Of a stretch of DNA of 64,000 bases, positions 9,041-11,364 are shown piece by piece. Positions within the stretch are counted from its first letter, which is position 1; each line of letters begins with the position of its first letter. The translations under genes were made by a program, and so were the position numbers. The stretch is from Thermus antranikianii DSM 12462. GTDB taxonomy: Bacteria; Deinococcota; Deinococci; Deinococcales; Thermaceae. The notes under the pieces were generated by a model. The model saw only the letters and a program-made list of their open reading frames with translations. It searched no databases and was not told the origin of the DNA. The stretch lies in NCBI RefSeq assembly GCF_000423905.1, contig NZ_AUIW01000003.1, positions 62,001 through 126,000 on the forward strand, written 5' to 3'.

Positions 9041-9076
9041 CTACCCAGCTGGCTCGAGATGTGCTAGGCTGGGTAG
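9041..9076. repeat. Inverted repeat in the 8.8-9.4 kb gap
   Basis: CTACCCAGC (9041-9049) and GCTGGGTAG (9068-9076) are perfect 9-bp arms separated by 18 bp. The repeat lies about 75 bp upstream of the -35 box of the small peptide gene. It could be an operator or a hairpin; I cannot distinguish these. Confidence 0.5.
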
Positions 9077-9151: not shown

Positions 9152-9180
9152 TTGACAGTATTGACGGACCCCCCTAAAGT
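9152..9180 (+). promoter_or_regulatory. Promoter of the small peptide gene
   Basis: A perfect TTGACA (9152-9157), a 17-bp spacer and TAAAGT (9175-9180). This is one of the best promoters in the window and sits in front of a 29-residue ORF with a terminator directly after it. Confidence 0.8.
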
Positions 9181-9236
9181 GAAAGACAAGCAAACGGGGC
9201 CGACCCCCCGGAAGCGGAGGAAAAGGAGGGATGAAG

Positions 9237-9326
9237 ATGAAGAAGCTGATCGCTCGCGTGTTGGTGCTTCTCAGCAGCTTGATCGCGCTCGGGCTTGCGG
9301 CTGGGGCTTCTGCGCGCTGGGAGTAG
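9237..9326 (+). CDS. Tiny signal-peptide-like peptide, stand-alone transcript
   Basis: This ORF encodes 29 residues (31 if the ATG at 9231 is used). I prefer 9237 because AGGAGG at 9224-9229 then has an ideal 7-nt spacing. The peptide has two N-terminal lysines, a long hydrophobic Leu/Ala core and an ASA site before a final Arg-Trp-Glu, so almost the whole product is a signal-peptide-like segment. It has its own TTGACA/TAAAGT promoter and a strong terminator at 9341-9371. It could be an exported signalling peptide precursor, a small membrane protein, or a leader peptide for the HD-GYP gene downstream. No family is recognised. Confidence 0.6.
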   Translation: MKKLIARVLVLLSSLIALGLAAGASARWE

Positions 9327-9340
9327 GTTCGGAGTAAAAG

Positions 9341-9371
9341 AAAAGGGGGCCAGTTAGGCTGGCCTCCTTTT
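9341..9371 (+). terminator. Terminator after the small peptide gene
   Basis: A 13-bp stem with one G-U pair (9341-9353 with 9359-9371) closes a 5-nt loop; the stem ends in TTTT. It isolates the peptide transcript from the HD-GYP gene, or could act as an attenuator. Confidence 0.85.
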
Positions 9372-9412
9372 CCCTTGCCCGTAGAAGGGGGATTTGCTAC
9401 ACTCAGGCCACC

Positions 9413-10819
9413 ATGGCCCTTAAACGCCTGGAGCTTCCCCCGCCGCGGGTGCTCCTTTTGGTCCTCTTGGCCTTCCTGGGCTTCCTGGCCCTGGAGGGCT
9501 TTCTGCTTTGGGCCTACGGGGGCATGCCCCTCCGCTTGGGTCTCCTGGACCTGCTTTTCTGGGGCGCGCTCATGCTTTGGAGCGTGTCCGTTCGCGTCCC
9601 GCTCCCCTTAAGCGCCAGCATGAGCCAGTTTTTTGTCTTTGCCCTGGCTCTAGTAGCCTTAACACCCCCTTGGGTATCACCTCTTTTAAGTTTCGTGCTT
9701 CAGTGGCGCCGAAAAGCTTGGTACAAGGAAATCTTCAACAGCTCCCAGAACGGCCTAGCCTCCGCTTTGGCGGCCCTGGCCTGGCAGTTTTTTCAGCAGA
9801 ACCCCGTTTACATGGGTTCCTGGAATCTTTCCGCAGGGGTGGGTATCGCCGCGGCCTCCCTGGCCTTTTTTCTCGCCAACACCACCCTGGTGACCACCGC
9901 CATTTCCCTCGCCAACAAGATTACCTGGCGTGAGGCGTGGCGAAAAAACTTCAGCTGGCTCGCCCTGAGCTACCTCCTCCTCTCCCCCCTCGCCCTCCTC
10001 CTAGCCCGGGCCTACGAGACGCCCCTTCTCGCAGGGTGGGGCGGGTGGACGGTGCTCTTCTTCCTCATCCCCCTCTACTACAGCCGCTTCTACTGGGACG
10101 AGAAGGTGCGCCTGGAGCAGGCCTTTGACACCACCCTGGAGCTTCTCATGAACGCCCTGGAGGCCAAGGACCCCATGACCCGCCTGCACTCGGAGCGCGT
10201 GGCGGACATCGCCCGCGACCTGGCCAGGAAGGTGAAGGGAGGGGACGAGGCCTACGCCCAGGCCGTCTACCGGGCCTCGAGGCTCCACGACATCGGCAAG
10301 ATCGCCATCCCCGAGCACCTTCTCCTCAAGTCGGGAACCTTGACCCCGGAGGAGTACGGCCTCATCCAAAGCCACACCACCCGGGGCGCCGAGCTCCTCT
10401 CCCCGGCCCGGAAGGTGGCCTTTGACCCGCTCGTCTACAACGTCATCCTCTACCACCACGAGCGCTGGGACGGCCGGGGCTACCCAAAGCGGCTCGCCGG
10501 GCACGAGATCCCCGAGGAGGCCCGCATCGTGGGCCTGGCCGACGCCTACGAGGCCATGACCGCAGGCCGCCCCTACCGTAAGGCCAAGACCCCCGAGGAA
10601 GCCCTAAGGGAGGTCCAGGAGCTCTCCGGCCACCAGTTTGACCCTAAGCTGGTGGAGGCCTTCACCGAACTTTGGGAGCAGAACCCCATCTGGCGCGACC
10701 GCCAGGCCTACCTGGAAGCAAAGGAGGGATCGGTATCACACTCTACCTCTACGCCGCGCTCTTCGGATTCGGCCTCGCCCTCGCCCTCGGAGCCCGGCTC
10801 AAGGACCTCGGAGGGATAG
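9413..10819 (+). CDS. Membrane-anchored HD-GYP cyclic-di-GMP phosphodiesterase-type protein
   Basis: The 468-residue protein has about 5-6 hydrophobic segments in residues 10-220, then an HD-GYP domain. Metal-binding and signature motifs include RLHSERVADIAR, HDIGKIAIP, HHERWDGRGYP and the following LADAYEAMT block. It is expected to hydrolyse c-di-GMP at the inner face of the membrane in response to a signal sensed by the membrane part. A TACACT box at 9398-9403 is 9 nt before the ATG, so it may be leaderless. The last 25 or so residues are a Ser/Pro-rich tail that overlaps the next gene, which looks like an extension past an ancestral stop. Confidence 0.9.
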   Translation: MALKRLELPPPRVLLLVLLAFLGFLALEGFLLWAYGGMPLRLGLLDLLFWGALMLWSVSVRVPLPLSASMSQFFVFALALVALTPPWVSPLLSFVLQWRRKAWYKEIFNSSQNGLASALAALAWQFFQQNPVYMGSWNLSAGVGIAAASLAFFLANTTLVTTAISLANKITWREAWRKNFSWLALSYLLLSPLALLLARAYETPLLAGWGGWTVLFFLIPLYYSRFYWDEKVRLEQAFDTTLELLMNALEAKDPMTRLHSERVADIARDLARKVKGGDEAYAQAVYRASRLHDIGKIAIPEHLLLKSGTLTPEEYGLIQSHTTRGAELLSPARKVAFDPLVYNVILYHHERWDGRGYPKRLAGHEIPEEARIVGLADAYEAMTAGRPYRKAKTPEEALREVQELSGHQFDPKLVEAFTELWEQNPIWRDRQAYLEAKEGSVSHSTSTPRSSDSASPSPSEPGSRTSEG

Positions 10820-11364
10820 AGCTAAGAGCGGCCTGGGCCTTCCTCCTGGCCGCCCTCCTGGAGGGGGGGCTGGCCTACGGCACGTATCGGGGGCTTTTCC
10901 GGCCCGAGTGGGCAGGCCCTCTAGCCAAGGTGTTGGTCCTCCTCCTGGTGGGGTACGGGCTTTACCGGAACCGGCACCTGAAAAGCCTTTACCTGGTCCT
11001 TCTGGGCCTTTTCCTCAACACTTTAGTCATCTTCGCCAACGGGGGCCACATGCCCGTGAGCCTGGAAACCCTGAGGAGGGCAGGCATAGAGGGCTGGGAG
11101 GAACTTTTAAGGAACAAGGGCGATGCCGTGCATACCCTCCTAGACGAATCCACCCGCCTTCCCTTCCTGGGGGATGTCATCCCCCTTCCCCCCTTGCGCA
11201 AGGCGGCGAGCCTGGGGGACCTCTTCATCCTGGCGGGAATCGCCGGGGTGGTGGTGGAAGGAGCCTTGAGGGCAGGGGGAAGGCGGCTTCCCAGGCGCCA
11301 GGCAGCCCTTAGGGTGCTGGCCTTTCTCCTGCTGGTTTTCCTTCTCCTTGCCCTTCGCGCTTGA
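10729..11364 (+). CDS. DUF5317 family membrane protein (start uncertain)
   Basis: A hydrophobic protein of about 211 residues with 4-5 membrane segments and the motif NGGHMPVS followed later by LGDVIP and SLGDLFILAGI, which I associate with DUF5317. Function is unknown. No ATG, GTG or TTG occurs near the obvious N-terminus. A strong AAAGGAGG (10720-10727) precedes ATC codons at 10729 and 10735, so an unusual ATC start is possible. The nearest canonical start is TTG at 10672, deep inside the HD-GYP gene. The overlap with HD-GYP is at least 85 bp. Confidence 0.75.
   Translation: MGITLYLYAALFGFGLALALGARLKDLGGIELRAAWAFLLAALLEGGLAYGTYRGLFRPEWAGPLAKVLVLLLVGYGLYRNRHLKSLYLVLLGLFLNTLVIFANGGHMPVSLETLRRAGIEGWEELLRNKGDAVHTLLDESTRLPFLGDVIPLPPLRKAASLGDLFILAGIAGVVVEGALRAGGRRLPRRQAALRVLAFLLLVFLLLALRA

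Follow-up and report, generated by a model that had tools for sequence, protein, structure and literature searches.

A conserved 29-residue peptide gene paired with a predicted MASE9-HD-GYP phosphodiesterase gene in Thermus and its relatives

The window analyzed here is a 64,000-nucleotide stretch of the genome of Thermus antranikianii DSM 12462 (NCBI RefSeq assembly GCF_000423905.1, contig NZ_AUIW01000003.1, positions 62,001 to 126,000), and the genes and signals described for it lie on the plus strand. A compact small gene begins with a promoter, P1 (9152 to 9180), made up of a -35 element TTGACA (9152 to 9157), a 17-nt spacer, and a -10 element TAAAGT (9175 to 9180). A preliminary description had called this promoter perfect, which is true only of its -35 hexamer; the overall match is 10 of 12 consensus bases. 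An equivalent (TTGAC or CTGAC, a 17- or 18-nt spacer, and TANNNT, no more than 130 nt upstream) is present in all 59 orthologous loci, compared to 0.35 expected from dinucleotide shuffles. The short 5' untranslated region (9187 to 9236, counted from a predicted transcription start) is nearly invariant in sequence within Thermus; it can form a weak GGGG/CCCC hairpin that leaves the Shine-Dalgarno element free, and its fold is no better than that of shuffled sequences (z = 0.2). The ideal AGGAGG reported earlier is there as AAGGAGG (9223 to 9229), spaced 7 nt from the ATG at 9237 that opens a 29-codon reading frame, MKKLIARVLVLLSSLIALGLAAGASARWE plus TAG (9237 to 9326), which is conserved and, over codons 1 to 24, under purifying selection. 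Two in-frame ATGs are available, at 9231 and 9237, and the first was rejected as the start because it reads ATA in genomes G024 and G004 and AGG in G016. As the second ATG is unchanged throughout and is better spaced from the Shine-Dalgarno element, we take the product to be 29 residues long, beginning at 9237. An intrinsic terminator (9340 to 9372; stem of -25.9 kcal/mol, z = -3.9) follows the stop codon and is strong, as described at first reading. A strict hairpin plus T run was found at this place in 53 of 59 loci, against 2.2 expected from shuffles. With its own promoter and terminator, the gene looks monocistronic in design. No second copy of the locus was found in a search of the T. antranikianii genome.

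The membrane HD-GYP protein said to be encoded just downstream starts at the ATG at 9413, 86 nt past the peptide stop, and runs to 10819. It combines a MASE9 membrane sensor (PF20972, E = 6e-24) with an HD-GYP domain (PF13487, E = 2e-41), and it keeps the HD and HHExWDGxGYP catalytic residues, so that by these residues and its sensor domain it is predicted to be a c-di-GMP phosphodiesterase. The T. antranikianii genome also encodes seven GGDEF proteins, no plasmid copy of the HD-GYP gene was found when one was sought, and MASE9 is present outside the phylum in Thermotoga. A TACACT motif (9398 to 9403) is the putative -10 element of a second promoter, P2, for a separate HD-GYP mRNA. The pattern TANNNT-N5..10-[AG]TG stands ahead of the HD-GYP frame at 51 of the 59 loci (a raw count without a shuffle control), and nearly all loci of the Meiothermus-like genus g4 have TANACT-N6-GTG as P2 and HD-GYP start. 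Because both the offset and the sequence are fixed in g4, a chance origin of P2 is unlikely, and the HD-GYP mRNA looks leaderless or near-leaderless from its sequence. An AlphaFold model of the HD-GYP protein built on seven sequences (mean pLDDT of 55) was not good enough to search for related folds and was discarded. A DUF5317 gene (10735 to 11364; PF17248, E = 7e-36) overlaps the 3' end of the HD-GYP gene and is the third member of the conserved unit. The order HD-GYP, DUF5317, HicDH, and pilM is largely conserved further downstream, and pilM and later pil genes lie three genes downstream; pilN and pilO are our assignments from gene order.

The peptide gene is widespread. Of 27 Thermus genomes searched by tblastn, 26 have the reading frame, with E values no higher than 4e-9, and a profile of the Thermus copies found it in all 23 other Thermaceae genomes examined and in nine Marinithermaceae-like (f4) genomes. 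Two further diverged copies, in G039 and G044, were read by eye 5' of the HD-GYP gene, which gives 60 genomes in two families, Thermaceae and Marinithermaceae, where family names outside Thermus follow genome kinship. The length is 29 residues nearly everywhere; f4 genus g14 and G049 have 30, and the G039 copy has 28 or 29. In a parsimony count of substitutions along the HD-GYP protein tree, codons 1 to 24 showed 87.5 synonymous and 42.5 nonsynonymous changes within Thermus (site-corrected ratio of 0.20), and 161 and 108 in the other genera (0.25). Over codons 25 to 27 and 29 the ratio rises to 0.85 in Thermus and 0.80 in the other genera, rough values drawn from a tail with few synonymous sites, which we describe as near neutral and not as diversifying selection. 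Judged by codon-level selection and by its conserved start, stop, and length, this is a real, translated bacterial small-protein gene. The autonomous gene for a 29-residue signal-peptide-like product that had been proposed is thus present in all its parts, and the two observations named in advance as telling against it, a lack of conservation and a noncoding substitution pattern, were looked for and are clearly absent.

As to a possible Sec signal peptide with an SPase I site, which would call for a positive n-region, an h-region, and small residues at -3 and -1, the peptide conserves K2, K3, and K or R at position 7, a hydrophobic core at residues 8 to 20, A or V at position 22, and A24. In a set of 28 sequences spanning the range of the peptide, L15, A17, G23, and A24 are invariant. 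Two details of the preliminary description did not survive the comparison. The ASA cleavage site it had named includes residues 25 and 26, which vary freely (in Thermus alone, position 26 holds A, F, L, M, T, V, or Y), and the conserved small-residue motif is instead A-A-G-A at 21 to 24. Of the C-terminal Arg-Trp-Glu, conservation is limited to Trp28, which is fixed in 26 Thermus genomes and replaced elsewhere by F or Y only; the g14 peptides end in F/Y-x-P. Pfam, NCBIfam, and Rfam searches at curated cutoffs placed neither peptide nor locus in a known family, the only Rfam tRNA matches being the upstream tRNA genes, and a PDB profile search with the peptide returned no real match. A literature search covering MASE9, DUF5317, and HD-GYP proteins with small membrane proteins or pheromones, as well as small open reading frames of Thermus, found nothing about the locus. 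The gene is apparently unannotated, undescribed, and near-universal in these genomes.

The constant companion of the peptide is the MASE9-HD-GYP gene. In every Thermaceae and Marinithermaceae genome examined in which this end of the HD-GYP gene is whole, the peptide frame lies 5' of it, and clustering of open reading frames places MASE9-HD-GYP directly 3' of the peptide in all loci with enough sequence, with DUF5317 next. Wherever one contig holds both, about 150 to 210 nt separate the two starts. On the 5' side, the neighbors differ between clades and form at least four unrelated sets, with a tRNA side in most Thermus, and several loci without the downstream pil genes still keep the three-gene unit. 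We surveyed co-occurrence in 111 genomes of the phylum, a set that may be short of Deinococcus, using MASE9-half protein queries and the Pfam model. Both genes were present in 58 genomes, the peptide only in two (G069 and G043, where contig ends cut the locus), a remnant of the HD-GYP gene only in one, and neither orthologue in 50, counting G082 with its weak MASE9 match in a 1066-residue frame. Neither the peptide nor a MASE9-HD-GYP orthologue occurs in the other families of the order, and a Deinobacterium control had GGDEF but no MASE9.

Exceptions to the pairing are few. The one Thermus genome without the peptide frame, G017 (locus L131), jumps from a point 5' of P1 to about codon 115 of the HD-GYP gene; read from this junction, the event is a single deletion that took the peptide gene together with the N-terminal 114 codons of its neighbor. 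A second MASE9 protein in the same genome (C1:57494) had no peptide frame upstream. The HD-GYP gene is broken in the G066, G026, and G004 loci: in G026 (L045) the interrupting insert carries a transposase-like frame, in G004 (L048) the insert consists in part of a stretch of N, and in both the peptide gene is intact. This counts against a dedicated partnership, though the two interruptions could be recent events. G026, G004, and G017 are possible natural mutants for a motility comparison. Genome G065 carries two copies of the peptide-HD-GYP-DUF5317 unit on C1 and C2 (L123 and L124), identical over the stretches compared, which reflect a duplication or an assembly artifact.

The link to the HD-GYP protein, which the preliminary description had offered as inference, is thereby backed by order-wide adjacency and co-occurrence. 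Part of the adjacency reflects slow rearrangement, because the downstream side is generally syntenic in both families, and the co-occurrence rests on few independent gains and losses, with G017 as the one clear co-loss. As P1, the terminator, and P2 are separate and conserved, the link should lie between the products. Few ligands of membrane-embedded MASE domains are known, and a genetically encoded peptide that accompanies a single MASE9-HD-GYP protein in two families is a concrete candidate for a ligand or subunit. On balance we think the peptide is probably a dedicated partner, membrane-inserted or exported, of the MASE9 sensor, setting the activity of the HD-GYP c-di-GMP phosphodiesterase and, through it, type IV pilus functions. 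Its build, with a K-K-x(3)-K/R n-region, a hydrophobic core of about 13 residues, A-A-G-A, and a short polar tail with Trp, would let it insert N-in/C-out in the inner membrane. There, as ligand or micro-subunit, it may contact the MASE9 domain of the adjacent protein; this contact would raise or lower c-di-GMP breakdown, and the c-di-GMP level would then act on the pili. The pilus ATPase PilF of Thermus thermophilus is a c-di-GMP-binding protein, and mutants that have lost this ability twitch and adhere about 40% less (PMC11731258). This connection, together with the retained HD-GYP residues, the GGDEF proteins, and the nearby pil genes, is why we propose the peptide as a MASE9 partner. The candidate is testable in genetically tractable Thermus, where twitching and adhesion through PilF are known c-di-GMP readouts.

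The partner could take two forms. As an intact N-in/C-out micro-subunit, the peptide would use Trp28 as an interfacial anchor, which agrees with how strongly the core is conserved; a test for a helical face of conservation found no periodicity, so helix-helix docking gains no support from that quarter. This form recalls MgrB, a tiny single-helix peptide that is a dedicated regulator of the membrane sensor PhoQ. The sequences are unrelated, however, the Thermus peptide has no large periplasmic part, and the sensor here is a predicted c-di-GMP phosphodiesterase. In the other form, the peptide would be a precursor clipped by a protease after AAGA (AAGA|SxxWx) to release a C-terminal pentapeptide. 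This form fits a conserved block beside the site and a tail that varies, and very short pheromone precursors are a precedent for it.

Taken further, the clipped form becomes a secreted pheromone, a species-variable pentapeptide xxxWx sensed by the MASE9 domain, which we hold as a tentative and somewhat doubtful reading. We know of no peptide pheromone in this phylum; if there is one here, cell-cell signaling in Thermus and its relatives would feed straight into c-di-GMP breakdown and type IV pili, and an HD-GYP sensor would read a peptide signal directly. The enterococcal inhibitor-pheromone precursors (Ipd, NF033893) are likewise very short and signal-peptide-like, with C-terminal residues as the signal and a small gene of their own, but only 1 of 28 peptide members matched that model, at a nonsignificant E of 0.017, and the Thermus locus has an HD-GYP sensor as neighbor in place of a conjugative plasmid context. 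Phr and NprX of Bacillus share about five variable C-terminal residues after an export-like leader and a position beside a presumed receptor gene; in contrast, the leader here is much shorter, the Trp is fixed, and there is no RRNPP receptor (NprX, E = 0.16 in one member). We treat these weak NCBIfam matches to Ipd and NprX as leads at most. AgrD offers a Lys-rich hydrophobic leader, small residues, and an aromatic tail, like the ends of the g14 members, whereas the peptide lacks both a thiolactone Cys and an acidic C-terminal tail and matches no AgrD model. An AgrBD quorum-sensing system was rejected on the latter ground and because a search for AgrB in 27 Thermus genomes found none.

The peptide might instead be an independent small membrane protein, such as an accessory subunit or an envelope-stress peptide, that neighbors the HD-GYP gene by chance in a region where rearrangement is slow. 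Small single-helix proteins are common, and the gene order from HD-GYP to pilM is itself largely conserved. We nevertheless consider this unlikely: the 5' gene order has turned over several times and the HD-GYP link has never been broken by it, families without the MASE9-HD-GYP orthologue are also without the peptide, and one deletion took the peptide gene together with part of its neighbor.

A cis-acting leader in the manner of TnaC or the secretion-monitoring arrest peptides, whose translation at the membrane controls terminator read-through into HD-GYP, would account for a short frame with a conserved C-terminal Trp, for the terminator between the two genes, and for a signal-like N terminus resembling that of the secretion-monitoring arrest peptides. 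The conserved putative leaderless promoter that HD-GYP has past the terminator in those 51 loci speaks against it, as do residues around Trp28 that are nearly free to vary, unlike arrest motifs, and we judge such control improbable. A type I toxin-like hydrophobic peptide would suit the size and hydrophobicity (TisB also has 29 residues) and is very improbable, given a Shine-Dalgarno element that is not sequestered, a minus strand without a promoter-like site in positions 7 to 12 kb, and strong purifying selection, a fixed place, and near-universal presence in two families, all atypical for toxins. That the locus is a noncoding RNA with a fortuitous frame, as greater conservation of the 5' untranslated region than of the frame within Thermus might suggest, is hardly credible and was ruled out by the codon pattern, the other counts against it being a length fixed over 60 genomes, a frame that survives in genera with a diverged untranslated region, a 5' fold no better than shuffles, and no Rfam match at the gathering score.

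Two further features of the region stand apart from the peptide. The DUF5317 gene has an ideal Shine-Dalgarno element, AAAGGAGGG (10720 to 10728), yet no ATG, GTG, or TTG at its conserved start position, which here reads ATC (10735 to 10737), and the same arrangement recurs in about 50 loci. The codon 7 nt past the Shine-Dalgarno element is ATC or ATT in Thermus and g5 and ACG in other Thermaceae and Marinithermaceae loci, and in more than 10 genomes the frame has no in-frame canonical start from the preceding stop to +60. Its first base, A, is conserved and doubles as the wobble base of the HD-GYP codon that it overlaps (GTA, CTA, or TTA). This pattern suggests a conserved near-cognate start codon, of the kind discriminated by IF3; the rival account is a -1 frameshift from HD-GYP. 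Finally, about 80 to 110 nt 5' of P1 lies a strong hairpin, CTACCCAGC...GCTGGGTAG (9041 to 9076 of the window, z = -4.9), whose 3' arm holds a TGTGCTA[AG]GCT box. Almost every Thermus genome has it, and where the arms differ the changes leave them paired, as with GCCTAGC...GCTAGGC in G024, G026, and G016.
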